From: Neovahlkampfia damariscottae
Taxonomy: Eukaryota > Heterolobosea > Selenaionea > Neovahlkampfiida > Neovahlkampfiidae
Assembly (NCBI GenBank): GCA_016618085.1
Contig: JABLTG010000069.1
Location: forward strand, 31,936 to 95,935
DNA length: 64,000 nt
Direction of reading: 5' to 3'
In this document: piece after piece, positions 7,046-64,000 of the stretch
How the letters are laid out: the number at the start of each line of letters is the position of its first letter
How positions within the stretch are numbered: the first letter of the stretch is position 1
Translations under genes and position numbers: made by a program
The notes under the pieces: generated by a model
Databases searched by the model: none
What the model was told of the DNA's origin: nothing
What the model saw: the letters and a program-made list of their open reading frames with translations, nothing else

Positions 7046-8257
7046 TTAAAACAAATTATAAACTTGATTGTCAACAAAGTATGCTCTTGTTTCTTGTAAA
7101 GTACCAGGTGGACAAAAATCTAAAGTTAAAGTTTTTAATTGTCCTTGAGCAGGATCATAGCCTAATTCTTGACAGAGCCATGAAGGAGAGAACCCAATTA
7201 GTTTTCCATTTTGTTGTAATTTGACATATAAAGTCATGAATTGTGTGGTTACATCAACTGTTAATCCTTCAACACCATAAACTGCATTGATGATTGTTGG
7301 CAAAACAATTGGTTTTTGTTGTTGTTGTTGTTGTTGTTGCATTCCAAATGATCCTTGTTGTACTCCAAATGAATTCTGATTTCCAAACATTTGTTGTTGT
7401 TGACCAAAACTTCCTTGTTGTTGTTGATTTTGTTGGGTTGAACCAAATCCAATTGCTTCAATTTCAACTCTTAAAGCACCTCTTTTTTCAAGAGGTAACC
7501 ATAAATCTTTGTTTAAACCAGCTTTTAAACTTGTCAATGTGACTACAACTTGTCCCATTTTGTCTTTGCTGCTTAACAAATCCCAATCATAAACTGAAGA
7601 AAAATTTAGAATTAAAAAAAAAAATAATCAAGGATTACCGCTTAAAAATATCGGAGCTGACATATCCTTAACGTGAAAATCAAACGTTTCATTCCATTGT
7701 GGATTAAGAGTTTTTTTAATTGTCTTAGTTTTTTTTTGTTCTTTTCCAAAAGAAATTTCAACAAAAGGATCACTTGTACCACCTTAAAATAATTAAAAAA
7801 ACCTTTGAGTGACATACCAATATCCATTGCTGGTAAATCTTTTCCTTCACAAACTTTTAAACGAATTGAAGGTTCAAGTTCCAAAATTACATGAAGTTGA
7901 GGATTTGTATTTTTAATAGGAGGTAATGTTAACCATAAATCATTTTTTCCATTTTGTAATTTTGATACTGGAATTGATGTTTTACCTACAGAATCATGCT
8001 TTCCAATCAAATCCCAGTCTGAAGTTTTAAAACAAAATTAACATACCATAGACTTCAAAAATAACATCATCATTCATATTATTGAAAGTTAGTTGAAATT
8101 TTTCATTCCAAATTGGTTGGAGTGATTTTTTAATAACTTTGGTTTTGTGGTTGTTTGGTCCTAATTTTGAAACCACATATAAATCTGACTTACCACCTAA
8201 ATCCATGGCTGGCATGTCTTTTCCTTCAACAACTGTAAAATTCAATAATAAACTCAT
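7046..8257 (-). CDS. C2-domain protein with Gln-rich linker (tandem C2)
   Basis: Four exons (8257-8047, 8018-7818, 7782-7639, 7593-7046) with introns of 28, 35 and 45 nt. Two C2 domains show the calcium-loop pattern GKDMPAMDLGGKSDLYV and GKDLPAMDIGGTSDPFV, with NPQWNETFDF and VYDWD later in the fold. A Gln-rich stretch (QQQQQQQQK) and an unfamiliar ~80-residue tail (YGVEGLTVDVTTQFMTLYV and on) follow. C2 domains bind membranes or partners, often with calcium. I start at the ATG at 8257 because a CCAATCA box (minus strand, 8290-8284) lies 26 nt upstream; an open frame runs on to 8389, but that part is antisense to a receptor pseudogene. Confidence 0.82.
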
Positions 8258-9077: not shown

Positions 9078-10963
9078 ATGAAGAAACAACAAACGTTACT
9101 TTTGGTTTTTTTTCTGACATTAATGGTTTTAAGTGCTAATTCAACTCAGATAGGTTGTATTTTATGGGAAAACACTTTTGTGAGAATAGAAAAACAAGAT
9201 TTATCAACACACGAAGAATATATTTTTACAGTTCATACTAGACAATCTTCAGGATGGATGGGTGTTGGAATATACACAAAACCTAATATTTTTGATGGTT
9301 CTATTAATGTTGTTGGATTTCTGCCCAATAATGTTGTGGAATTGAAAAATCACACAACACAAGTAACCAAAAAATCAATATTCGGTGAAACATTTCAGAA
9401 TATACTATTTAATACAATTGATGGAACTTTCACATTTGCTTTTATATTGAATTCCTCTCAAGTACAAGGAAAAAATTATTTTGCTTTTGCACAAAACAGT
9501 TTTCAGACTCCAACGAGAAATAATGATACTTTAGAGATATCAAAACATCAGTCATTCAGCAGATTTCAATATTTTGAATTTAACTCTTCAAAAAACGTCA
9601 TTCCTGTTTGTCGAAATGGTTTGAATATTTCAGCACGTATAACAGGTAATCATCCGCTTGGATATGCAGCTATGATTATCTTTTATTGTATAGTGATAAT
9701 ATTAATGTTTTGGTTCAGGAATGAACAACCTTTTCGATCAAGATTTGCCAGTCCTTATATCTCAACTGCTGCAGTTTTTATCAATTTGGTTTTGGAAGAA
9801 ATTTTCGGGATCTTACCGTATTATCAATCCAGTCCAAATTACTGTTGGTTTGTAGGTTTTTTAACATATGGACCATTGCAAATGGCGTAAGAAAATCAAA
9901 CTCTTTTTTAAATCATAGAACAATTCTTCCACTTATTTTAGTATTTCGGTACTTCATTCTTCTTCGAATTCACAAAAGAAAAAGGCAATTTATAAAAAAA
10001 TTGAAGAAAAATACAGAAATTTTTGAAGAAAATGTATCCAGAAAGTTTAATTATCCGAAATTCATTTTGAATTCATTTTTGAAAATCGTATCTTCCAGAT
10101 GGATTACTTTGGCTGCACCGTTGATTTATACAACGTTATATTGTTTAGCGACTCTTTTTATTTACGCGATTTATTCATTCAAATGTGATCAATCAACTTA
10201 TTTCGCAATGAGATATTTGTATTTCGGAATGAACATTTGGGTCTATTGCATGATAGCTTTATTGATTTGCATTGATTTCATATTTAATATTCGTTGGATT
10301 TTCACATGCAAATGTAAGAAAATTTTTGTAGATGATGATCCTTTCAATTTCCGCCTGGACATCATCATGATTTTTGTACTTGTCCCAACGACAGTTGCTT
10401 GGGCATTTCTTCCATTACCCAAATATTTATATTCTGTTTTAACAGAATTAAATATGTTTTTAGCAGCTTGGGTAACTGGATGGCAAACATTAGTTATCAC
10501 AATGATCAAGAAATTGATATTTCTGATCAAAGAAAAAAGAAAGTCAAATAAACCTGAAAGAAACATTGTGAATCTAAATTACTGTATAAGCCCAGAAGTT
10601 ATTGATACTTTCATCGCATTTTGTGAATCCGAATGGTCAATTGAAAATATCCTCTGTAAATTAGACATTTTGAAATATCGATCTCTCAAATCAAAATCTG
10701 AAAGAAAAAAAATTTCCAAACAAATTCAAAAGAATTATTTAACAGTAGGTGTTTCAGAATTAGAAATCAATTGTCCTCATATCTTGATGAATGAAACAAT
10801 TAAAGAGATTGAAAAGGAAGAATTTGAGGATGATTTATTCAGAACTATCGAAAGAACAGTGGATGTCAATTTGGTAGACACTATTTCTCGTTTTAGATTT
10901 TCTTACATGTATGATGCATATGTATACAGTTTAGAGAAACAAACAAAAGATTTAGGTTTATAA
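9078..10963 (+). CDS. DOMON-like / seven-transmembrane / RGS receptor, copy 1
   Basis: Two exons (9078-9886, 9919-10963), 32-nt intron. A signal peptide (MKKQQTLLLVFFLTLMVL) precedes an extracellular domain of ~150 residues starting IGCILWENTFVRI, with FTVHTRQSSGWMGVGIY resembling the beta-strand/GW pattern of DOMON domains, and Asn-X-Ser/Thr sites. Seven hydrophobic helices follow (TM1 near residues 190-215). The cytosolic tail is an RGS domain: FIAFCESEWSIENILCKLD, then YRSLKSKSERKKISKQIQKNY, ending DTISRFRFSYMYDAYVY. By layout it would be a receptor with its own G-alpha GTPase-activating domain, as in plant RGS1, but with a large ectodomain. The ATG at 9078 is preferred because it starts the signal peptide and follows CCAATCA at 9047-9053. 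Confidence 0.85.
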
Positions 10964-11594: not shown

Positions 11595-13482
11595 ATGAAA
11601 TCACTCCTATTTATCTTCTTCCTTTTGATCATAAATATGATAAAATCACAAGAAACCACTGAAATAGGATGTGTCTTATGGGAAAACTCTTTTGTCAAAA
11701 TTTATCAACATGTGATTTCCAAATCACAAACAAGCTACATTTTTAGAGCTCACTCAAGGCAGAGGAATGGATATTTTTCAATTGGAATATTCTCACAACA
11801 ACATGTTTTTGAAGATTACATTGGAGTAATTGGGTATTTACCAAATAATGTTTTTCAACTAAAAAATCACACAGAAAAAGTTTCACAAAAAACTATTTTT
11901 GGTGAAACTGTCCAAGATGAAGTATTTAATTCACTTGATGGAACATTCACCTTCGCCTTTTTATTGAACGCAAGTGATGTAGAGACCAAAAATTACATTG
12001 CCTTTTCACAGAACTTTTACGAAACACCAACTGAAAAAAATACAAGCATCTCAATTCCAAAACATTCTTCATTTAGTTCATTCAAATATTTTCAATTCAA
12101 CTCAACAAAATATAATATACCAATTTGTCGATTTGGACTCAATATTTCTGCAAGAATTTCAGCTACTCACCCTGCCGCATACATCACAACCATATGTTTT
12201 TTGATTTTTGTATTTTTATTGTACATCCAATTCCACAATGATCAACCTTTCAAAAGTAGATTTGTTGCTCCTTATTTTTCATTTTTTGCAAATTTCGTAA
12301 ATTTCTTCACTGAAGAGTTATTCTCTCAATTAAATTATGAAACATCAAGTCATATATATTGTATAATGACACCGTTTATAGGATATGCTTCTTTACAAGC
12401 AGCGTAAATTTTATTTATTTTTGATCTTTTGTAGTTCAACACTTCCTGTCATTTTGTTATTTCGTTACATGATATTGCTGAAAATACACAACAACAAGAT
12501 TAATTTAATCAAGAAATTAAAGAAAAAAGCAAGTTTTCATGAAGAAGCAAATGAAGTGAAGTTCAATTGGTGGAAAGTAACCACCAACTATATTTTGAAG
12601 ATGATTTCATCTCCTTGGATTATTTTGATATTTCCAATCATTTGGATATTTGTTTTCTGGTCTTTTTTATTGATCATTTATGGCGTATTTGATTTTCAAT
12701 GCACCACTACAAGCTTTGGTTATATGAGATTATTTCATTTTGGTTATTTTGGAATCAATTTTGCTTTCATGATTGGTTACAGTTTTTATGATGTTCTTTC
12801 AAACATTCCATCAATTATACGTTGTAAATGGAAAAATATGTTTTATCAAGATGATCCGTTTTTTTACAGGTTGGACATGTATTCAATTTGGTTAATCATT
12901 CCTCCAAGTTGTATTTGGGGATTTGCAACACTTCCAAAGTATATTTATGCAATTGTTACTGATTGGGTCATACTTATTGGATTATGGGTTTCTGGTTGGC
13001 AAATGCTTGTCATTACAATTGTGAAGAAAATGATATTCTTTAGAAACAATTTTCGCAAGTCAAATGGTGAATCAGGGGAACAAGTAATCGATATCCAGTA
13101 TTGTATAGATCCTAAAATGGTTGATTTTTTCATCAGATTTTGTGAATCTGAATGGTCAGTCGAGAATATTTACTTTAAACTGGATGTTAAAAAATATGAA
13201 CTTTTGACCTCAAAATCTGAAAGGAAACAATTTTCTGAGATTATTCGACAGAAATACTTAATACCAGGAGTTTCTGAGTTGGAAATTAATTGCCCAAACA
13301 AATACATGTATGCAGTATCTAGACAAATAGATGAAGGAAATTTTCCCGATGATTTATTTCAAGCCATTGAATGTATTGTTGACATAAATCTATCAGACAC
13401 AATATCAAGATTTCAATTTTCATCAACTTACACAAATTATTTAACCAAGCAAGAAAAAAAGAATAAAGAATTGGGACTATAA
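11595..13482 (+). CDS. DOMON-like / seven-transmembrane / RGS receptor, copy 2
   Basis: Exons 11595-12404 and 12436-13482, 31-nt intron at the same place and phase as in copy 1 (after LQA). Signal peptide MKSLLFIFFLLIINMIKS, ectodomain beginning IGCVLWENSFVKI, YFSIGIFSQQHVF at the GW-like strand (Trp replaced), membrane helices, and an RGS tail with FIRFCESEWSVENIYFKLD and GVSELEINCP. It has the family's two-part WENxF and PxCRxGLNISAR signatures. Relative to copies 4 and 5 it is well diverged, so it was not part of the recent conversion event. Confidence 0.85.
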
Positions 13483-14507: not shown

Positions 14508-16386
14508 ATGTGGAAGAGGTTTTTGCCATTAGTTTTGTTTTTCAGTTTTTTATATCTTGTAGAACCAAGAGAAGTTGGATGCATAATCTGGGAAAATACT
14601 TTCGTTTCGATTGACAATTCACAGACAGATGGAAATTTTATTTTTACTGTACACTCAAGAGAAAATAGAGGTTATATGAGTCTTGGAATATATTCAAAAC
14701 CAAATTATTTTGATGATTCAATTGCTGTTTTAGCTTATTTACCAAACAAATTTATTCAAATGAAAAACCACACTTTGCAAGCGTCTAAAAATACTTTTTT
14801 TGAAGCTCAATTTACAAACATGTTGTATGACTCGATAGATAAAACTATAACCTTTAAATTTAAAATGAATTCATCCGATTTATACAACAAAAATTATTTT
14901 GCTTTTTCACATTCAATTGAAAAACCAGTAGAAAAGAATGGAACCATTGTTATACCAAAACACCAAAAATATAGCAGCTTTAGATATCTACAATTGAATT
15001 CTACAAAAAATTTAATTCCAGTTTGTAGATTTGGAACCAATATAGCTGCTAGAGCTGGTGTACTTCATCCAATCGTTTATGTTGTATTCAATCTGATGTA
15101 TATCTCAACAGGTCTGATTTACATTTATTTTATGTATGATTATCCTTTCAAAAGCAGATTTGCTGGCCCATTTTTTGCTTTGGGTGGTCTGTACGTGAAC
15201 TTGATTGAAGAATTTTTTTTTACCATTTTGACCTATGAACAAAGCAGCAAATATTACTGTCTAATGACTGCATATTTCAGTTATAGTTCCATTATATTGA
15301 CGTAATATGACCAAAAACAACTTTTAAACTTTTGATAGTTTTGCTGTGCCAATGATGATTTTGTTTCGTTATCTTGTTCTTTTAAGGATTCAAAACAGAA
15401 AAAGAAAATATATTGAAGACATAAAGGATAAAAGAATGAGTGTTATGGATTTAGAAGCGATCAATATTTCTCCAACTCGTCATCGTGCATCCATCATGTT
15501 CAAATTTTTTTTAAAAGTGCTTTCATCAAGAAGAACAACATTATTATTTCCTGTTATTTGGGTAGGTTTATTCTTGTGTATTATATTTATAATTCATGCT
15601 GCTGGAAATTTTCAATGCCACACTGAAGTTTTTGGTAAAATGAGAATTGTCTATTTTGTTCAAGTCATTGCAGTCTATGGTTTTTATTTTATTCTTTTAG
15701 TAGTTGACCTTATGCTAAATATACCTAATATCTTTCGTTGTAAATGGAAGAAAATTTTTGTTGAAGATGATCCACATAATCATCGATTGGATATGTATTG
15801 GGTTCTTTTGATGGTCATTCCAACTGTTATTTGGGGTGTAGTACCCTTACCAAAAACTATTTATTCATTTGTTACTGAATTGGTGATGTCTTTTGGATTA
15901 TGGGTGTCAGGACTGCAAGTTATTCTCATAACCATCATCAAGAAACTTCTATTTTGGTTGAGTAAATCAAAATCAAAGAAGCGATCGAAAATGAAAAAGA
16001 CAAGAACTCTTATTGTTGATATTGATCATGTTTTCAATGATGAAATAGTTGGAGCATTTTTAAAATTTGCTGAAGCTGAATGGTCAGAAGAAAACGTATT
16101 ATTTAAAATTGATGTAAAACGATATAAAAAAGGAAATCAAGAGGAAAGGGAAAAATTTAGTGAGATAATTAGAAACAAGTATCTGATACCCAGAGTTTCA
16201 GAATTAGAAATTAATGCACCAACAAAATTTTTGAACATTGTTTGTCAACAGATTGATCAAAAGATTTTTGAACGTGATTTATTTCAACCTTTAGAGGACA
16301 TTGTAGATGTCAATATTGTTGATATCATTTCCAGATTTGCATTTTCTTCGCAATATTACAATTTATTGGATGAATTGGAAAAATAA
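14508..16386 (+). CDS. DOMON-like / seven-transmembrane / RGS receptor, copy 3
   Basis: Exons 14508-15301 and 15339-16386, 37-nt intron at the family position. Signal peptide MWKRFLPLVLFFSFLYLV, ectodomain VGCIIWENTFVSI, YMSLGIYSKPNYFDDS, then FGTNIAARAGVLHP before TM1. The RGS tail reads AFLKFAEAEWSEENVLFKID: the usual Cys of FCESEW is Ala here. A GATTGGTCA element lies about 10 nt before the ATG. The gene ends 45 bp from the convergent C2-propeller gene. Confidence 0.85.
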
Positions 16387-18559: not shown

Positions 18560-18752
18560 TTCTTTTTTTTTATCCGTTGATTTTGTGCACAACCGATATG
18601 ATTTGTTGGTTTTATAGAACATTCCAAAAGAAAATCCAAAAAAAAGTGTAGAATCTTGAAAAAACAAATCTCTGTTTTCTCCAAAAAACAAAAAAATCAT
18701 GATCTCTACTTTTGAGATCATTCCTATTGGACAAAGTTCCAAAGTTGTTTTG

Positions 18753-20626
18753 ATGAAACAGTTGCTTCTTGTGTTATTATTTTTTTCCAACTTTTTTGGA
18801 GGTTGTTGCCAACTTCAAGAAATTGGATGTCTTTTATGGGACGAAACATTTCTCAGAATCCATAAAAACATCAAGCACTCGTCACAAGATGAATATATTT
18901 TCACTGTTCACACAAGACAATGGAACGGATACATAGGTGTTGGTATATTTTCAAAACCAAATTTTTTTGATGATTCCACTTCTATTATTGCTTATTTACC
19001 AAATAATTTTATACAATTAAAAAACCACACCAAACAAATGAAAAAAAAAACAATTTTTGGAGAAAGCTTTCAAGGAAAATATGATACTTTAGATGGAACA
19101 TATACATTCGGGTTTATCATGAATTCAAGTGATTTAATTGGAAAAAACTATTTTGCTTTTTCAAAAAATGAAAACTCAAATCCATTGACAATAAATGGGA
19201 GTATTATCATTCCAAAACATTATACATTCAGTAAATATTATCATTTACAATTGAATTCAACAAATAATCTAAAAGCCCTTTGCAGAGAAGGACTTAACAT
19301 TGCTGCAAGAATAACAGCATTTCATCCTGCAATATTCTTAGTTGCTTTTGTTATTCATGTGCTAATAGCTTTATTATATCTGACATTTATGAATCATCAA
19401 CCTTTCAAAAGTCGTTTTTTTGGACCATACATAGCTTTGTCAGCTGTACACATTAATTTAATCATGGAATTTATTTTGACAATTAGAAGTTATGAAGCAT
19501 CAGCACTCAATTATTGTATTGATTCTATTTTATTCTCATATGGACCTTTACAAGCAGCGTAAGTTGTTCAAATTCAAAATTCATTCTTTTCAGATGTTCC
19601 ACACCTGTAGCATTGATATTTCGTTATATTGTTCTTTTGAAGATACATAATAACAAAAGAAAGTTTATTAAACTTCTAAGAATGAAATCTAGTCGTGATA
19701 CTGAAAATATGAAGAGAAAAGATAAACGCACTATTTTTCGAAAGAGATTTTTATCAACTATTTCCTCTCCTTGGACAATTGTTTTGGTTCCAATTATTTG
19801 GACAGGAATATACTTGATTTTTTCTTTTTCAGTTTATGCTGGTTTCAATTTTCAATGTAGTACTGACACTTTTATCATTCTGCGATTCATTTTTATTGGG
19901 ATGTTTGGTTTCTGTATTTTAGTGATTGCATCGCTTATATTGTTTGATTTCTTAACCAATATTCGATATATTGTCGTTTGTAAATGGAAGAAGATATTCT
20001 TTGAAGATGATCCCTTCAACTTTAGATTAGATATGATTGCAATGATTTGTCTTACACCCCCATTGATTGTATGGTCATTAGTTACATTGCCCAAAATCAT
20101 TTATGCAATTTTCACTGATATATTGATGTATTTATCAATATGGTCTGTAGGATTCCAGGCTTTGTTGATTACAATGTTAAACTCTTTCTTGCTGATGTTT
20201 CGAAAAAGTAAATCAAAAGAGAAAAATATAAAATATATACATCAAATATTGGAGCCAGGAATAGTTGATGTCTTTGTAGAATTTTGTGAATCTGAATGGT
20301 CTCTCGAAAATATTCTGTTTAAATTGGATGTTATCAAATACAAAAATTCAAAATCAAAGTCAGAAAGAAAACAGATCAGTTTAATGATTTTGAACAAATA
20401 TTTGATATCAAATATGTCAGAATTGGAGATTAATGCGACAAATGAAAAAATGGTTGCTGTTGGAAAATTGATTGAAAATGAAGAATTGGATGATGAACTT
20501 TTCCAAGGCTTGGAATCAATTGTCAATGTCAATTTAGCAGACACAATTTCAAGATTTCAATTTTCATATATGTATGAATCCTATTTGAAATCAATCAAAA
20601 AAAAAGAAAAATCTTTGGGACTTTAA
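18753..20626 (+). CDS. DOMON-like / seven-transmembrane / RGS receptor, copy 4
   Basis: Exons 18753-19559 and 19595-20626, 35-nt intron at the family position. Signal peptide MKQLLLVLLFFSNFFGG; the ATG at 18753 follows a TATTGGACA element by 20 nt and is preferred to the in-frame ATG at 18699. Ectodomain IGCLLWDETFLRIHKN (Asn of WEN replaced by Asp-Glu). Bases 18883-19268 are identical by eye to 40242-40627 in copy 5, although the flanks differ. The RGS tail has FVEFCESEWSLENILFKLD. Its TAA overlaps the stop of the convergent gene at 20623. Confidence 0.85.
18883..19268 (+). repeat. 386-bp tract identical to 40242-40627 (gene-conversion tract)
   Basis: Covers most of the extracellular domain of receptor copy 4. 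Identity to copy 5 is complete over 386 bp by direct line-by-line comparison and stops sharply at both ends. Confidence 0.9.
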
Positions 20627-31696: not shown

Positions 31697-32537
31697 ATGA
31701 CCACACAATACGCAACACTTCCAATCGAAATAATCTTTGAAATTATTGGTTTTTCAACAACAGAAACATTGGTATCCTTTCAACTCACAAGTAAAGAATT
31801 CTATGAAGGAATTGAAAAACATGAATTTTTATGGAAAAGTTTGGCAAAAGATTTAGAACAAAAACATTTTGTAAATCAACTAAAACCAAAAGAGTTAAAT
31901 TATAAACAATGGTACTTGGCTATTAGAAGAAATCTTTTTACTTGGGATGAAAAACTATCTTCACATTATTATAAAATTTCAAATAACAATTCTACTGTGA
32001 TGCACAACCATAAGAGTAACGGAGATTGTATAGCAAGGGTTTCAAGACCAATAAAAAAGGATATATACTACTTTCAAGTTTCTATTGAGAAATGCTTGCA
32101 TCAAGGAGACAATGTAAAATAAAAATCATTAACCAATTTAGATAATGGTTGGAGCTGCACATGAAACAAATAACTTTGAAACACAAACATATTTAGGTTC
32201 TTCATCCAATGGATACGGATATTTCAAAGAAGGAGGTCATGTGTTCAATTCAGGAACTGATAATCTAGAACCATTTAATCAGAATGATCACATTGGCATT
32301 TTATTAGATTTCAACGAAGGAATCATCTCTTTTACAAAGAATGAAAAGTTCTTTTTCCAGGTTGTCAAAAATTTGAATGGTGAGATGAGACCAGCTATAT
32401 CTTCACTGTATGTTTTTGATCAAATTTCCATCACAACAAACCCAATTCCAAAATTTACAGAATTTGATGATAACAAAGGTTCTTTGGAATACATTCAAAA
32501 AATCAACAAATATTTTGAAAATTTTGAATGGATGTAA
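31697..32537 (+). CDS. F-box / SPRY-domain protein
   Basis: Two exons (31697-32113 and 32142-32537), 28-nt intron. The N-terminus TLPIEIIFEIIGFSTTETLV with FQLTSKEFYEGI is an F-box-like helix pair, normally the Skp1-binding part of an SCF ubiquitin ligase. The rest has the SPRY/B30.2 pattern: VMVGAAHETNNF-type strand, YLGSSSNGYGYFKEG, HIGILLDFNEGIISFTKN, RPAISSLY. SPRY domains recognise substrates. CCAATCA lies at 31668-31674. Confidence 0.75.
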
Positions 32538-40105: not shown

Positions 40106-41984
40106 ATGAAGTTTACTTCCGCTTCATCTGTGGTTGTTCTTTTTTTAGTTTTCAACTTCACCTTTATAAACACTGAAGTTATTGAAGTAGGATGTATAAT
40201 ATGGGAAAACACTTTCTTGAAAATTGACAAGAACTTAAAAACACAAGATGAATATATTTTCACTGTTCACACAAGACAATGGAACGGATACATAGGTGTT
40301 GGTATATTTTCAAAACCAAATTTTTTTGATGATTCCACTTCTATTATTGCTTATTTACCAAATAATTTTATACAATTAAAAAACCACACCAAACAAATGA
40401 AAAAAAAAACAATTTTTGGAGAAAGCTTTCAAGGAAAATATGATACTTTAGATGGAACATATACATTCGGGTTTATCATGAATTCAAGTGATTTAATTGG
40501 AAAAAACTATTTTGCTTTTTCAAAAAATGAAAACTCAAATCCATTGACAATAAATGGGAGTATTATCATTCCAAAACATTATACATTCAGTAAATATTAT
40601 CATTTACAATTGAATTCAACAAATAATTTCATTCCAGTTTGTAGATTTGGATTGAATATTTCAGCAAGAATTACAACTTATCACCCGTCAATCTTCATCA
40701 TTACGATGATTTTTCACATTTTTTTATTTTTTTTAGATTTAACATTTATGAATCAACAACCTTTCAAAAGTCGTTTTATCAGTCCATATATTGGTATTGC
40801 TGCAAATTATGTGAATACAGTTATGGAATTTATTTTTTCCATTGTCACGTTTGAACAATCAAGTAAAATATACTGCACACTTTCAATATTATTCTCATAT
40901 GCTCCAATTCAAGCAGGGTAAGTCCTGATTATTATTCAATTTTTTTTGTAGATTGGCTTGTCCATGTTTGATGATATTTCGATATATGATTTTATTGAGA
41001 ATTCATAAAAACAAAAGAAGGTATATAAAAAAACTGAAATCAAAGCAAAGTTTAAACCTTGAAAATGAAGAATTAAAGTTCAAAATGATTCCATATTTAA
41101 GAAAGAGATTATTGGCTACCTTAGCTTCACCCTGGATTTTCATTGGTGCTCCGCTCATCTGGGCTTCGATTTTTGTTGGAATTTGTTTAATTTTATTTGC
41201 TTCATTCTCATTTCAATGCACGACACATTTGTTTTTGTTTCTTCGTTATACCAATGTAGCTATGTTTGGAATTCTCTGTCTTGGGATATTTTCCTTTGTG
41301 ATGGTAGATTTCATTTTAAACATTAAGTTTATCATCAAATGTAAATGGAAAAAGATTTTCTTTGATGATGATCCGTATAATTTCAGATCAGATATGATTG
41401 GTATTTTATTCGTCATTTTGCCAGTTTCCATTTGGGTTTTGGTACCTTTGCCAAAAGTAGTATTTGCAATATTCACTGATATCATTCTTTATGGAGGGAT
41501 ATTATACAGTGGAGGCCAAGCATTAGTTATTACAATCATCAAATCAATTATATTTAGAATCAGAATAAGTAGGGGAAATAATCATTCATCCATTCATGTG
41601 AATGATGTGACATCACCAGAACTTGTTGATGTTTTTGTTCGGTTTTGTGAATCTGAATGGTCAGTCGAGAATATCATGTTCAAATTGGATATTCAAAAAT
41701 ACAAATCATTGAAACGATCTGAAAGAAAGTTATTTTCTGAATTGATCAAACAAAAATATTTGATCCCAAATGTTTCTGAATTGGAAATTAATGCACCTGT
41801 TAGGAGCATGATTGATGCTGGAAAATTGATAGCTGATGGAAAATTCGAGGATGATTTGTTCAATCAACTTGAAAAAATTGTTGATCTCAATTTATCTGAC
41901 ACAATCAACAGATTTAGATTTTCTTATATTTATGCCACACATTTAAATGATATTGAAATTCAGAAAAAAACATTAGGATTATAA
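40106..41984 (+). CDS. DOMON-like / seven-transmembrane / RGS receptor, copy 5
   Basis: Exons 40106-40917 and 40952-41984, 34-nt intron at the family position. Signal peptide MKFTSASSVVVLFLVFNFTF, then VGCIIWENTFLKIDKN, then the 386-bp block shared with copy 4, then FIPVCRFGLNISARI and seven helices. RGS tail FVRFCESEWSVENIMFKLD, PNVSELEINAP, ending KKTLGL like its relatives. It sits 20 kb from the main receptor cluster, next to mobile-element remnants. Confidence 0.85.
40242..40627 (+). repeat. 386-bp tract identical to 18883-19268
   Basis: Partner of the tract in receptor copy 4; same strand, same place in the gene, sharply bounded. Confidence 0.9.
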
Positions 41985-46288: not shown

Positions 46289-49265
46289 TTATTTTATTAC
46301 GTTTCTAATGGATGATCTCTTTGATTTTTGTTTTACTGGAAGTCTCATATAATTATTTAAATCTTGACAAATGACATCCTTTTCAAATCTATTTATTGAG
46401 TCCAACATTACTGTAGCTGTTACATGTTGTGCAATCTCTTCAAATATCTTTGAATTAATATCTCCAGTCTTTTTTGATTCTTGAAGTTCTGCAGAAATGT
46501 TTTGTCTATATTTACCACTGATATTAATTTCTAATGCTGATGTTGATGATAAATAAGATGAACAAATTTCTTCTGCTTTTAATAATCTTTCTTTATCTGA
46601 TTTTAAATTTCTAAAAATTTGAACATCTTCATAAAATAAAATAGCTTCTGCTGCCCATTCATGTCTCAAAAATGCTTTTAGAAATTGTCTAAATGTTTCA
46701 TGTTGAACGACAATCTTCTGATATTCACTCAAAGTTGAAAATTTGTTTTGTAATTTCCAATTTAAAGAGAATTTGGTTTTTAATGGTTTTTGAATTTCTC
46801 GTAATTCCGAAATAATATCTGATATCAATGGTCTATTCTTTGGATTTTTATCAATCATTTGAATAACAATATTTAAAATAGATGTTGTAAATTGAGTTGT
46901 ACCCTGACCAATTAAAATGATGCAAAAATCAATTACCTTTAATGACATCAATTCTTGTTTAAAATTCAAAACATAATCTGCTCCCTTTCTTTGAAATACA
47001 TTTTTCACAGATCCACGATTATATTTTTTATCATAAATTTCTTGAATTTTCTCCGGAGAATAAAAAGTCAATAATCTAAAAAAAATAAAACCAGCAGCAT
47101 AAATATCACTTTCACTGGATTTTATACCTTCTGCTGCAACATAATAAGGTGAAAAATCTTCATATGATAAATAAAATCCAGTATCTAAATAAATAGAATT
47201 GTAATAACTTGAGATTCGAATGTTGACTTCTCTCAATTTCCCCAATTCAAAAAATACATTTTGAGAATGAAGATGTTGCAAAGCGGATAGTATTTGAATC
47301 ATATAACTTACTACTTCCTGAAAAAAAAAAAAACATTAAAAAATATAGACCTTACAAGTTCAACTAATTTACTACTTGAATTTTGAATATATTTCTCAAG
47401 TGTATCACTCACTTCTGTTGTAATAATTGTCAAACAATATTTACCATCAGATTGTTCTTCATTGAAAGATTCAATTAATTGAATAATATTTTCATGTTTT
47501 ATTTGATTTCCAAGAAACTACTCAAAAAATTAAAAATTTGAAAAGTCAAAACTCTTAATGTTATATTTTCGATATTTTCTTTTGAATCAATTATTCTTTT
47601 TGCCCAAAACTTTTCATATGTTGCCTTATTCCTCACTAAAAATATTGATATTTTTGAAGTTTCTTTAATGATTTCTTCAATTGAATAAATTTCATCAAAT
47701 TTATAATTCTTTTGTTTTGATGAAGTTGAGTTCACATAATCTTTCCAAATGATTGAATTTATAAATCTTGGATAATACTCTTCTGAAAGGACATGATGAA
47801 CAATTTTGAATAATTGATTGAACCAATCAGGTGATATTTTATCTTTAATTAATATTTTATCTCGAATTTTTGGATCATGAATGACTAAACAAGGTGAAGA
47901 TAATTTACAATATCTATCAATAATTTTTTGAATTTTGACTTTTTTTAATCCACCTGTAGTATCATAGTTATAATCTGTTTCGGAGATTAAATTTAATTCA
48001 TCAAAACAATCAATAAAATGTTTACCAAAAGCATCACGAACATAATTCTTGAACAATTTATATGCAATTTTTGATTTGATTAACGAATCAAAATCAGTCG
48101 GAAAATTGGCTTCTTTCTTTTTTGCTTCTTCTTCTTTTTGAATTTTTGATTCAAAATTAATTTTTTCAAATTCCTTAAAAGAAGATTCTAATTCATTGAA
48201 TACCTGTGGGAAAAAAAAATGAATTTTTGAATTATAAATTACATGTCTGTATCCCATTTTAAAGGAACTAGCTGATCCTTTTTCATATAGTTTCGTCATA
48301 ATCTTTAAATCTTGTTGAGAAAAAGAAATTGAATTTTCACCATTTGGTTGAATAAAATCATTAAATAATTGTTTACTCAAAGACTCTTTTAACTCATCAT
48401 CCTTTTCTGTAAAGTATTTATGATATAATTCATAGTATTTGAATTGTTCTGATAATCCATTTTCAGTTGTATGTCTTTGAAAGAAATTTCTTTGTTTTTC
48501 ATTCAAAAATACAGGTAGAATTTTGAAATCTGATTTAGATTCTTTTGGAATTTCAAGATATGACTGATTAATTCTTTTCACTTGAAGTGTTGATTTTCTG
48601 CGATTCGATGAACCAAAATTTCTATTGGATATTTTTTTCTCCGGTTTATCTTTTGGTTTCTTTTTTTCTTCAATGATTTCTGAAATACTCCTTTGAAGTA
48701 ATTTCAATGTTTTTCTTCTTCTTTTTTCATTTTCGGATGTGAATGAATTCAAAGATGATGATGAGTCATTATTTGTAGTTATTTCAATATTTTGTGATTT
48801 TTTATCTTCTTTTATTTGTGAGTGACTTGATTCTCCTCTTGTTGTTGTAGTTCTTTGTCTTGAACTCTTTTCTGGTATAATTTCGGATAAATTTCTTTTC
48901 AAAAGTTTAAGAGTCTTTTTTCTTCGCTTTTCATTTTCTTTCATTGTTTTTAATTTCTCTACTTTTCGTTCTTTCAATACTACTTCTTGTTTTTTTTCTT
49001 TTTCTTGTAATTTTGACTCCATCAGTTTCATTTGAATTTTGAGTGCTTCTAGCTCATTTTGTAATGATTTATGACTATTCTCTAACTCTTGAATCTTAAT
49101 TTTATCTTGTTCCAATTCTTGTTTTTGTTTTTTATTCAACCCCTCAAGTTGAGTATTCTCATCAGCTATTTCTATCAATTTCAGGTTCAATTTTTCCAAT
49201 TCTGACTCTTTAACATTTGAGGAACTACTTATTCTCTTCCACAAAGAACTTGATTTTTTTTGCAT
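46289..49265 (-). CDS. Coiled coil - RGS - RGS - pseudokinase - RGS signalling protein
   Basis: Introns around 48209-48244, 47517-47552, 47317-47352 and 46902-46937 (each GT..AG and frame-restoring). N-terminal Ser-rich and coiled-coil region (to residue ~130), two basic repeats (KRRKKTLKLLKRNLSEII and KRRRKTLKLLQRSISEII), a first RGS-like domain from NEKQRNFFQRHTTENG, a second from DSLIKSKIAYKLFKNYV, then a kinase-like domain: FWAKRII keeps the Lys, but the HRD site reads FELGKLREVNIRI and DFG reads LDTGF, so it is probably inactive. A third, C-terminal RGS domain follows (FRQFLKAFLRHEWAAEAILF). The ATG at 49265 is 30 nt after a reversed CCAATCA. Confidence 0.78.
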
Positions 49266-49440: not shown

Positions 49441-50396
49441 TTAATTTTTCTGTTTTGATTCATAGTACTCATCAATATCATAATATCTACTCAATAAATC
49501 ACCTATTTGCTGTGCTGTCCTTCCAGTTGCATCTGTTATTGTGGCATCTGCTCCATTATCAATTAATAGTTTCACCATCTTTTCTGAACCAAATCCAGCT
49601 GCATAGTGCAATGGAGTCCATTGTATTGAATGACCATATGACTTTTTTTCCTAAGAAATGAGTAAATTGATTCAAATTTCAAACATCTTCAAAGTACTCA
49701 AAATATGTCAAAAAAACAATTAATTGAATTTACTTTCTGTTTGATGTTAAATTTCAGATATTTGTTTTTTTACACCCTTTCCATGATTAATTCTACAATT
49801 TCTTACGTACTATAGAAAACATTAAATGAGCTATCATCTTACATACTACAAATAATATTTTAGAATAACTCAACTAAAAGATTACAAGTTCATCCTTCAA
49901 ACAAGTTAATATGAATAAAACAAAGATACAAAATACTTGAATTTGATTAGAACTGAAAAACTTACAAACTAAAGCATAAACTGAATTTCAACTTACATAC
50001 TGAATTTCTTCAATAGAAAAAAGTTCTTACATACTAAACAGTTGACCAAATTAACAAAACTCTTACACCCTAAATGTAATTCAGAATTTGGAAAAAAAAG
50101 ATACATTCTAGATTTGTAAAAAAAAACCTGAAAAACTTACTTTCTTTTTGTTAAAGTCAAAAATAGTACTTACATACTGTACATTTTTAAAAAGAACAAA
50201 ATTTACATACTAGGAATAATATTAAAAAAAAAAAAAAGTGACTCACAATCTTTTTTTTTAAAATTTGAGAAAAGAGTTATCTTACACATCCAATAGAAAA
50301 ATCATATTTCACGTTAATTTCAAATCCTTGAGAAAGAATATATTTCATTGAATCAATGTCTTCATCTCTAATCGCTTGAGATACGTTATTTTCCAT
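49441..50396 (-). CDS. Ankyrin-repeat protein interrupted by a 17-intron, 16-micro-exon array
   Basis: First exon 50396-50286 (MENNVSQAIRDEDIDSMKYI, ILSQGFEINVKYDFSIGC, an ankyrin half-repeat). Last exon 49650-49441 with SIQWTPLHYAAGFGSEKMV, KLLIDNGADATITDATGRT, a full ankyrin repeat and a tail. Between them, 635 bp contain seventeen stretches that each begin GT and end AG, 28-40 nt long, separated by 3-12 nt. Removing them all adds 22 residues, IYYKNGYYFYF then DELYYGKYFED, without a stop, giving a 128-residue protein. All introns are phase 0. The alternative is one 635-nt intron, which would be far longer than any other here. TGATTGG at 50418-50424 marks the start. Confidence 0.75.
49651..50285 (-). 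other. Micro-exon array (16 exons of 3-12 nt)
   Basis: Micro-exons on the minus strand, in order: 50247-50249 ATT, 50207-50209 TAT, 50174-50176 TAT, 50141-50143 AAA, 50105-50107 AAT, 50067-50069 GGT, 50031-50033 TAT, 49997-49999 TAT, 49966-49968 TTT, 49930-49935 TATTTT, 49886-49894 GATGAACTT, 49843-49845 TAT, 49807-49809 TAC, 49774-49776 GGT, 49734-49736 AAA, 49685-49696 TACTTTGAAGAT. Donors are GTAAG (eight), GTGAG (one), other GTAA (five: GTAAA three, GTAAT one within these) or GTAT/GTTT forms; acceptors are YAG, AAG or GAG. Each junction has the form AG-NNN-GT. Confidence 0.75.
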
Positions 50397-60247: not shown

Positions 60248-62245
60248 TTATTCAATTATTTTTGAATCTGATTTATTCATTGAATGATGTAAAATTATCA
60301 CTTCATCATGATTTGACGGAATTATATCTAATTTAAAATTCAAATCTTTCATCAAACATAAATCTTTTGAACAATAGTATATTTGACATTTGATCAACAA
60401 TTCCTTTGAAAATTTACATTTAATGTTCAACAAACAACTGTTGTTTTCTGTTTTCTCAATTTTTCCTTTTGTTGAGTTGATTGTCCATTTGGATGGAGCA
60501 TTTTCATGTAAATGAGACATTCTTGGTAATTCAATGATGATTTTAAACTCAATTTCTTTCCCTTCAGTCCATTTTATAGGATCCAATTTGATGAATTCCT
60601 CATCAACTTCGTTTGTAGATTTGATAAATTCAACAGTGGATGAAGATTTTTTAGACAAATCTAAACATCTTATACAGTGATTATTTGTGTCAGCAATATA
60701 TAAAAAATTGTTAAAATGACACATTCCTGATGGCTCATTGAATTTCATTTTTGAAAAATCATCTGAGTCTTGATGACCTGGTGAGCCATCACCAGCAAAG
60801 TTGGAAACATAATCATCTTTTATCAACTTTATTCTATGATTATATGTATCAGAAACTATCAAATTTTCATATAGCTTCAAAATACCAAGTGGATGTTGAA
60901 ATTTTGATTCTTGTAAAGATCCTGTGATATCTCCATAATCAAACAAATTTTTGGGATTATTTTGATCACCTCCTGTTATTGTTAATGTTTCCATTGAATT
61001 CAAATTGACTTTTCTGATTGAGCTACTTTCAGAATCAGTGAAATAAAGAAATTCATTTTCAACAAAAATACCTGATGGCTGAGCCAAAGAAACAGAAAAC
61101 GGATCAGTCCCATTTTTATGCATTTCATCAGTATTTCCAATTATATTCTTCCCAAATGATTGTTCAATTTTCCAAATTTGATGGGAACCTGACATTGTTA
61201 CAAAAATACTGTCTTCGTGAACAAAAAGTTCCCAAGGAGAATTCAGGGATATATTAGATCCAAAACCTTCACTCTTTGAGTTTAAGACACCAATATTTCC
61301 ATTTCCTATTAAAGTGGTCACAACTCTTTTGTTAAAGTCAATTTTTCTAATTGAATGGTTATCAGTATCTGCAACAAAAAGAAAATTTCCATCAGATGCC
61401 AAACCATGTAAATGATTGAATTCACACTTTTCAAATGTTCCATCTTTGAATCCGGATTTTCCTGATCCTATTAAGTACAAAACTTCAAATTGATTTTCAC
61501 TTTTTTTTTTTGAAACAACTATTCGATTATTTGAAGAGTCACTAATAAAAAAGTAATCCTTATGATGAATGATATTAGATGGAAAGCTCAAAAAGTTATT
61601 TTTTGAGTGGGTTTTAAATTTTACAACTGACTTGTTTGATAATTCCTCTTTATGAAACATTAAAGCTTCATCAATTAACATTTCTAATTCATCTCTGTTT
61701 CCTTCACCAACAAATTTTTTAACAAATTTACCATCAGGACTAATCAATACAAAAGTTGGCCAACATGAAATTTGCATTTCTTTCCACATTTTCATTTCAA
61801 AATCATTCACAACAGGATGATGAATATCATATCTCAAAATTGCATTTTCAATATTTTCGCTAATTTTTTCATTTTCAAACTTTGCACTATGTACTCCGAT
61901 AAAAATAATTGAATTTTCATTTTTGTATTTATTTTCTTCAATGTTTAATTTTTTTTTGTTTTTGGTTTTACCTAAATACTTGATATCTGGAATTACATGA
62001 ATACAATTCATACAACAGTATGTCCAGAAATCTAAAATTACAATTTTACCTTTTAATTCTTGATCAAAAGATAATGGTTGAGAGTTAAACCAATCTAGAT
62101 TTTTTTGAAAGTCTTTTGCTCTTGTTGTGCTTAAAGTGGCTTTTTTTAAGAATCTTTGTTGAAGAGATAAATTTGAATTTGAAGAATCTACAACTTCTGA
62201 TTTTTTCAATTTGTTCATTTTTGCTCTTATCTCATCTAAAGACAT
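60248..62245 (-). CDS. NHLRC2: NHL-repeat protein 2 (thioredoxin-like + NHL beta-propeller)
   Basis: N-terminal thioredoxin-like domain with DFWTYCCMNCIHVIPDI (the family's CCxNC motif) and ISCWPTFVLISPDGKFV. Six NHL blades follow, each with a phrase like HLHGLASDGNFLFVADTDNH or PSGMCHFNNFLYIADTNNHC. A C-terminal beta domain closes it. Removing GTAAAACC..TGAAG (61936-61971, 36 nt, no stop, multiple of three) gives IPDIKYLENKYKNENSIIFI, which matches the family better than the unspliced read. The ATG at 62245 follows a reversed CCAATCA by 18 nt. Role in animals is poorly defined (redox/cell survival). Confidence 0.9.
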   Translation of the reverse strand: MSLDEIRAKMNKLKKSEVVDSSNSNLSLQQRFLKKATLSTTRAKDFQKNLDWFNSQPLSFDQELKGKIVILDFWTYCCMNCIHVIPDIKYLGKTKNKKKLNIEENKYKNENSIIFIGVHSAKFENEKISENIENAILRYDIHHPVVNDFEMKMWKEMQISCWPTFVLISPDGKFVKKFVGEGNRDELEMLIDEALMFHKEELSNKSVVKFKTHSKNNFLSFPSNIIHHKDYFFISDSSNNRIVVSKKKSENQFEVLYLIGSGKSGFKDGTFEKCEFNHLHGLASDGNFLFVADTDNHSIRKIDFNKRVVTTLIGNGNIGVLNSKSEGFGSNISLNSPWELFVHEDSIFVTMSGSHQIWKIEQSFGKNIIGNTDEMHKNGTDPFSVSLAQPSGIFVENEFLYFTDSESSSIRKVNLNSMETLTITGGDQNNPKNLFDYGDITGSLQESKFQHPLGILKLYENLIVSDTYNHRIKLIKDDYVSNFAGDGSPGHQDSDDFSKMKFNEPSGMCHFNNFLYIADTNNHCIRCLDLSKKSSSTVEFIKSTNEVDEEFIKLDPIKWTEGKEIEFKIIIELPRMSHLHENAPSKWTINSTKGKIEKTENNSCLLNIKCKFSKELLIKCQIYYCSKDLCLMKDLNFKLDIIPSNHDEVIILHHSMNKSDSKIIE

Positions 62246-62318
62246 TTTGTGTGGCACAACTTTTGATTGGATAATTGAAGTTGTAATACAAAAATAGAAT
62301 TCACTCACAAATCAAAAT

Positions 62319-63728: not shown

Positions 63729-63787
63729 TTTTCTTCTTTGCTTTCTATTTTTTTTGAAAAACTGACCAATCATCAAAATTTAGTTGG

Positions 63788-64000
63788 TTTTGAGTTTTAG
63801 GTTTTAGGTTTAGGGTTTGAGGTTTTGGGTTTTAGGTTTGAGGTTTTGGGTTTTGGGTTTTGGGTTTTGGGTTTTGGGTTTTGGGTTTTAGGTTTTAGGT
63901 TTTGGGTTTTGGGTTTGGGTTTTGGGTTTGGGTTTGGGTTTTGGGTTTGGGTTTGGGTTTGGGTTTGGGTTTGGGTTTGGGTTTGGGTTTGGGTTTGGTT
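63788..64000 (+). repeat. Telomeric repeat, TTTGGG/TTTTGGG type
   Basis: Irregular units TTTTAGG, TTTAGGG, TTTGAGG and TTTTGGG at the inner side grade into uniform TTTGGG at the tip. The G-rich strand runs 5' to 3' toward the right edge, the correct orientation for a right chromosome end. Variants inside and a clean repeat outside are typical of telomeres. Confidence 0.85.

Follow-up and report, generated by a model that had tools for sequence, protein, structure and literature searches.

Arrays of predicted one-codon exons in a family of ankyrin-repeat genes of Neovahlkampfia damariscottae

An ankyrin gene of the heterolobosean Neovahlkampfia damariscottae (GenBank assembly GCA_016618085.1, contig JABLTG010000069.1) contains a 635-nt block in which the motif AG-NNN-GTAAG recurs. 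The question raised by this locus is whether the block is removed from the transcript as a single long intron, or whether its three-base segments are exons of one codon each that are joined into a protein loop. We addressed this question computationally, in the 64,000-nucleotide stretch of DNA that contains the gene (contig positions 31,936 to 95,935; hereafter the window, whose own numbering is used throughout) and in the genome assembly as a whole.

Results

A 635-nt block tiles into tiny introns and micro-exons

The original prediction resolved the block, on the minus strand, into 17 GT..AG introns of 28-40 nt and 16 intervening micro-exons, of which 13 have a single codon, and a dynamic-programming tiling returned the same segmentation with no remainder. 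The tiling also returned the claimed phase 0, the exon lengths that are all multiples of three and the absence of stops in the window micro-exons, under rules that forbid stops in exons, favour 3-nt exons and impose GT..AG, so that the exon and intron totals given below are models. Chance tiling was rejected: with introns limited to 28-40 nt and exons to 3-12 nt, no tiling existed for any of 2000 dinucleotide-preserving shuffles in which the terminal GT and AG were retained. The recurrence of AG-NNN-GTAAG had been said to exceed chance and does so: there are eight copies in the 635-nt block against a shuffle mean of 0.06 and maximum of 3, and, with both strands counted, a single copy outside the block in the 64-kb window, at 8198 on the minus strand. 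The claim that the array introns are of ordinary length holds against the one gene used for comparison, a neighbouring Ras-family gene whose five introns measure 33, 32, 37, 36 and 32 nt. Because the block tiles, shuffles do not, and the lengths are like those of these five introns, we class the array introns as putative GT..AG spliceosomal introns, and by their splice-site bases and length they would belong to the U2-type class. Excision at the DNA level, in the manner of the internal eliminated sequences of ciliates, would suit inserts that are short and AT-rich and spacers among which TAT is frequent; however, the GT..AG boundaries are like those of the Ras-family gene and no constant TA repeat bounds the inserts, and we regard excision of this kind as extremely improbable. 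The layout of the window gene is as follows.

50286..50396, minus strand: N-terminal constant exon, ATG..TGT, 37 codons (MENNVSQAIRDEDIDSMKYILSQGFEINVKYDFSIGC), its last residues being the family motif ..GC (sequence; 12 aligned N exons; ankyrin match of the spliced protein in Pfam)
49651..50285, minus strand: array of 17 introns and 16 micro-exons, predicted to encode IYYKNGYYFYFDELYYGKYFED (dynamic-programming tiling; 0 of 2000 shuffles tile)
49936..50285, minus strand: introns 1-10, with nine single-codon exons I Y Y K N G Y Y F between them (tiling)
49930..49935, minus strand: 6-nt micro-exon TATTTT (YF) (tiling)
49886..49894, minus strand: 9-nt micro-exon GATGAACTT (DEL) (tiling)
49734..49885, minus strand: introns 12-15, separated by the single-codon exons Y, Y and G and followed by K, also of one codon (49736-49734) (tiling)
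49685..49696, minus strand: 12-nt micro-exon TACTTTGAAGAT (YFED), an instance of the Y-[FILM]-x-[DN] element (shared by 13 of the 17 array genes, with a correspondingly spaced counterpart in 6 of 8 paralogues that lack an array)
49651..49684, minus strand: last intron, donor GTTTGA (tiling)
49441..49650, minus strand: C-terminal constant exon EKKSYGHSIQWTPLHYAAGFG..KQKN*, ankyrin repeat (sequence; 13 aligned C segments; spliced protein against Pfam, Ank_4 at 3.6e-11)

In order, the micro-exons read ATT TAT TAT AAA AAT GGT TAT TAT TTT TATTTT GATGAACTT TAT TAC GGT AAA TACTTTGAAGAT; thirteen are of 3 nt, and there is one each of 6, 9 and 12 nt. Fifteen of the 17 donors start with GTA, the remaining two being GTGAGT and GTTTGA. 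The C-terminal exon starts GAAAAAAAG (EKK..) at 49650, and the predicted product is MENNVSQAIRDEDIDSMKYILSQGFEINVKYDFSIGC, the loop, then EKKSYGHSIQWTPLHYAAGFGSEKMVKLLIDNGADATITDATGRTAQQIGDLLSRYYDIDEYYESKQKN. The micro-exonic part is the loop only, 22 of 128 residues; in three other family members, L001, L003 and L006, the loop would have 71, 21 and 29 residues (tiling models). When compared with Pfam, the spliced protein matches Ank_4 with 43.4 bits (cut-off 22.7) and Ank with 37.0 bits (cut-off 21.1), and by these matches the window gene is predicted to encode an ankyrin-repeat protein.

Elsewhere, the window ends with its contig (C273) in about 32 copies of the 7-base repeat GGTTTTG (TTTTGGG) at 63786-63996, probably a telomere, which would place the array gene about 13 kb from it. 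Five open reading frames contain an RGS domain (9845-10963, 12385-13482, 15346-16386, 40953-41984 and 46289-47302), one of them with a protein-kinase match as well, which suggests a large RGS family. The same tandem-repeat consensus occurs at 19202-19245 and 40561-40604, inside the reading frames 18699-19562 and 40106-40921, and suggests a duplicated gene segment. A thioredoxin-NHL protein is encoded in one open frame at 60248-62308; the named proteins among the best 120 of its 4007 matches are bacterial, plant and, in a few cases, animal.

Seventeen paralogues carry an array at the same protein position

Using the C-terminal ankyrin segment of the window gene as a query against the genome (G000; 20.4 Mb, 307 contigs), we obtained 40 matches, by our count 33 places. 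Arrays are present at 17 of these, the window gene included, and all lie at one position in the protein, so the array is not a one-off curiosity; the other 16 places have no array at our scan thresholds (at least three or four motifs within 90 bases of each other). The 17 tiled models contain 325 single-codon exons, from 3 to 66 per gene, and 366 introns of 27-75 nt (median 36), of which 259 have a GTAAG donor. Exact genome searches for AG-codon-GTAAG with TAT, TTT or GAT as the codon returned clusters confined to these genes. On a tree of 25 constant regions, whose support is weak, array presence requires four changes. No relatives of the family were confirmed in viral contigs.

Two near-copies on different contigs, L021 and L022, have a largely continuous loop in which, by eye, an ATG immediately ahead of the C exon appears to be the one exon of a single codon; they are possibly an intermediate form. 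The array-free paralogue at L028:3516-4295 has an SH3 domain on its C-terminal side, and the array-free EukProt protein P0001 carries a precomputed PF00610 label, which we take to be the DEP domain; family members may therefore be signalling adaptors.

The micro-exons look coding

The absence of stops was retested free of the tiling rule, on AG-NNN-GTAAG motifs across the 17 array spans. A spacing of three bases between AG and GTAAG occurs 245 times, and each of the other spacings from 0 to 15 occurs 0-13 times. None of the 245 triplets is a stop, where the base composition of the introns (0.117 per triplet) would predict about 29; the count overstates the significance because duplicated units are not independent.

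A second line of evidence comes from the family motif YP.GC; across the 12 aligned N exons its G and C hardly vary. The arrays of L002 and L014 start earlier than those of the other array genes and split the motif, as AYPI|GGA|TGT and RYPI|GGA|TGT respectively, with YPI in a 12-nt exon in front of the G and C exons. From the single-codon frequencies of the other arrays, the chance of G and then C at a named place is about 0.0017. Adjacent single-codon G-C pairs number 4 of 301 in total, including one in L009 and a second in L014, and since such pairs arise elsewhere in these genes the split GC alone is modest evidence; we regard it as supportive rather than conclusive, strengthened by the 12-nt YPI exon ahead of it.

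A third is the last micro-exon, which in 13 of the 17 array genes (12 by tiling, L010 by eye) is a 12-nt exon encoding Y-[FILM]-x-[DN]. Among these 13 rows, hand-chosen for showing the element (L002, L008, L012 and L014 were left out), its distance to the following I-x-W is the same in 12, and in L007 is one residue longer. Read from the DNA and anchored on the W alone, six of eight array-free paralogues (L024-L029; L022, as a near-copy of L021, was excluded) carry Y-[ILV]-x-[DN] in uninterrupted sequence at the corresponding place, and the same pattern was found at none of 150 other offsets in the array-free paralogues. The two exceptions are L021, which apparently has introns there, and L030. 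In four of the 17 array genes the element was not found as an exon: in L008 its sequence is present and the acceptor is changed to TTGG; in L012 YIKG runs continuously towards the C domain with two extra residues, as it does in the EukProt model P0003; and L002 and L014 have no Y-[FILM]-x-[DN] at all.

The composition of the array residues is also distinctive, with 20.9% Tyr, 9.5% Gly, 4.0% Trp and 1.2% Leu against 4.1%, 3.9%, 1.0% and 8.7% in 13 window reading frames, and with no Gln or Met. Counts of 0 of 55 for AAG/GAG and 0 of 19 for GTA are only suggestive of avoidance of cryptic splice sites, the units being duplicates. Synonymous codon preference did not discriminate (0.75 observed; 0.72 and 0.71 expected). 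Silent retention would be possible for only 16 of the 366 modelled introns, those with a length divisible by three and no stop.

These data bear on an alternative, raised with the original prediction, in which the block is one long intron that arose by tandem intron duplication and is removed whole or recursively, its three-base spacers being discarded. Tandem duplication explains the repeats and fits the younger arrays, which consist of tandem near-identical units, but this account leaves the codon-level conservation, the absence of stops and the residue bias unexplained. Specifically, L002 and L014 place the family G and C in exons of one codon each, a counterpart of the YxxD micro-exon exists in paralogues that have no array, 0 of 245 triplets are stops, and the whole spans would be single introns of 218-2629 nt across the 17 genes against 32-37 nt in the neighbouring gene. 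We therefore consider a single long intron quite unlikely. The claim that the one-codon exons are real, and would be spliced by intron definition, gains support from the 16 further array genes, the split G and C residues and the array-free counterpart of the 12-nt micro-exon. Taken together, the micro-exons look coding, as judged from genomic sequence.

Eleven EukProt gene models lack the single-codon exons

The EukProt proteins apparently come from the species of the window genome, as P0001 and L024 are 97% identical and differ by an intron. None of the 11 EukProt models returned for the family (P0002-P0011, P0018) contains a single-codon exon, which is what removal of the array as one long intron would give. 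In six models (P0006-P0011) the C exon directly follows GC, in P0002 GC is followed by YIKD, and P0003, P0004, P0005 and P0018 are truncated or mis-started; skipping the whole array keeps the reading frame. P0006 matches G000 at no more than 80-92% over its longer pieces, and its own gene may differ in whether it has an array. The variety of these errors suggests ab initio prediction, and the missing codons look like gene-finder behaviour, although they would be heavy counter-evidence if the models were backed by RNA. A metagenome protein, P0012, probably from another species, has FRRC ahead of its C domain; back-translated by eye, FRRC could hide a YLED-type micro-exon with splice sites.

The array maps to a predicted hairpin between ankyrin repeats

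An AlphaFold2 model of P0001 has a mean pLDDT of 50.5 and a pTM of 0.30, with the ankyrin helices at about 87-95. Between two helix pairs, the model has one strand at 34-37 and another at 79-82, and the residues enclosed by them at the array position (40-73) are of low confidence. The most likely product of the array is therefore the tip of a beta-hairpin that lies between ankyrin repeats. Ankyrin hairpin tips bind partners, and in designed ankyrin binders, as in antibody CDR loops, a variable loop rich in Tyr, Gly and aromatic residues sits on a constant scaffold, the hairpin tips forming a binding surface. The Tyr/Gly/Trp-rich composition of the array loop resembles that of such binding loops; the analogy is one of function only, with putative ligand binding by the array loop.

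Near-identical introns beside diverse codons in young arrays

We compared codon and intron diversity using modal-length inner introns only, of which old or short arrays have as few as two to four. Codon diversity per site is 0.44-0.78 in every array, regardless of intron age, and intron diversity is 0.00-0.58. In the extreme case, L006, 22 modal-length inner introns differ at 0.3% of sites and the codons at 48% (ratio 189); the ratio is 45 in L003, 15.5 in L023 (four introns), 13 in L009, 12 in L005, 11 in L001, 3.1 in L007 and 1.0-1.6 in the rest, and the infinite ratio of L019, from two introns, means little. Arrays differ in age: in old ones the introns have diverged to background, and in young ones near-identical introns lie beside very different codons. 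Young-array spacers are far more diverse than the introns next to them, the reverse of what is expected of discarded sequence, a further point against a single long intron.

Between paralogues, the array-intron consensus is 86-100% alike against 76-91% for the N exon, the introns being higher in 12 of 12 pairs; for the C-exon region the figure is 79-95%, which in some pairs equals that of the introns and in one pair exceeds the intron consensus. Unit gain or loss is seen between L003, modelled with 17 single codons, and its near-copy L019, modelled with 3. Codons are associated with variants of the adjacent intron on both sides in L005 (P 0.03) and on one side in L001 (0.002; other side 0.06), and no such association was found in L003, L006 or L009. 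This pattern fits unit duplication with frequent intron exchange and with selection keeping the codons apart. Six arrays (L005, L007, L008, L012, L019 and L023) hold stretches of 65-75 nt in which a splice site may have been lost.

The original prediction pictured introns inserted between almost every codon of the segment. This is one possible history only, and duplication of intron-plus-codon units fits the young arrays at least equally. A burst of introner-like insertion into a formerly continuous loop exon, with ancestral codons and recent, identical introns, would explain identical introns beside diverse codons with no rapid codon change, and array-free paralogues with largely continuous loops do exist. 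Against such a burst, the 20-nt core of one array unit has 83 exact matches in the 20.4-Mb genome, all of them in the arrays of C25, C117, C223 and C274, and is thus not dispersed, and codons are associated with neighbouring introns in L005 and, on one side, L001, though the other three arrays (L003, L006, L009) gave no association. A dispersed mobile intron is therefore not supported for the one unit searched, which is distinct from those of L003/L019 and L005/L008. We know of no inserter that acts every three bases in frame, and judge an insertion burst unlikely.

Discussion

We think it quite probable that the block is a coding array for the hypervariable loop of a small ankyrin protein, with codon cassettes set between introns. 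The constant exons would supply ankyrin structure on either side of the array, a helix pair on the N-terminal side and one more repeat on the C-terminal side. At the hairpin tip, most residues would come from separate one-codon exons, and a few exons would contribute two to six residues, between tiny phase-0 introns (median 36 nt). The one-codon exons would be joined by the spliceosome through intron definition; intron-plus-codon units would duplicate, so that arrays grow and shrink; and recombination would homogenise the introns, selection keeping the codons different. Each paralogue would thereby acquire its own loop rich in Tyr, Gly and aromatic residues. The features read from the genome are the array anatomy as modelled, the family of 17 genes with its array-free paralogues, a 12-nt micro-exon and two one-codon exons that appear conserved as coding sequence, and the decoupling of codon from intron diversity; we infer splicing of every unit, unit duplication as the mode of growth, selection as the diversifier and ligand binding as the function.

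Compatible with a coding array is combinatorial splicing, in which the units are optional and in-frame skipping yields many loops from one gene; a similar scheme has been proposed for schistosome micro-exon genes, but here it would act one codon at a time. Micro-exons that are multiples of three between phase-0 introns, a property imposed by the tiling and unforced in the AG-N3-GTAAG spacing (245 against at most 13), would leave any subset in frame, the full-skip form included, and the near-identical splice sites along young arrays offer no obvious enforcement of one pairing. However, strong donors (GTAAG in 259 of 366) and short introns favour pairing within each unit, and we hold combinatorial splicing to be somewhat unlikely. 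A broader idea, which we advance tentatively, is that the arrays are codon-by-codon diversity generators, in which the loop of an ankyrin receptor or adaptor is kept in one-codon cassettes and a repertoire arises by stochastic exon choice or by recombination between identical introns. Such recombination would reorder and copy codons and never break the frame, and codons would diversify far faster than their surroundings. Targeted codon change is another possible source of the codon diversity.

The nearest known organisation is that of schistosome micro-exon genes, in which, in the part of the published account drawn on here, very small symmetrical exons make up most of the coding region and alternative splicing yields a pool of similar proteins (PMC4350168). 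Small symmetrical exons, as predicted for the arrays, would be the common feature. As far as that account extends, the arrays differ in having mostly one codon per exon, tandem units, homogenised introns (in young arrays) and hypervariable codons, and in lying inside an ankyrin hairpin of a unicellular eukaryote; the likeness is one of gene organisation, known here from genomic DNA. Whereas most of the coding region is micro-exonic in the schistosome definition as given there, here this holds for the loop only, 22 of 128 residues in the window gene. Plant micro-exons of 1-15 nt, in genes such as APC11 and VPS55, indicate that spliceosomes can use exons down to 1 nt and that annotations miss them (PMC8831610, in part); as described there they are isolated and conserved, unlike the long, hypervariable arrays found here. 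Tandem duplication is a described source of introns (PMC4974935, PMC2891723), and a stwintron paper describes genes with two 3-nt exons (PMC5639578); in the portions of these papers considered, the cases are single introns or two 3-nt exons, against runs of up to 66 one-codon exons here. In the open-licence PMC literature, which is without preprints and most subscription papers, we found no report of runs of one-codon exons, and we rate such arrays, pending RNA, as a categorically new gene organisation.

If spliced as predicted, these genes would represent an extreme of exon size, with up to 66 consecutive single-codon exons recognised by intron definition, and a natural test of the smallest exon that a spliceosome can use repeatedly. 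The EukProt models examined leave out the one-codon exons, and similar arrays may therefore be hidden in other published genomes. The near-identical introns beside very different codons provide material with which to ask whether selection or targeted change diversifies the loop. If our reading is true, this ankyrin family would have taken an unfamiliar route to protein hypervariability, in which introns serve as frame-safe recombination spacers between single codons.
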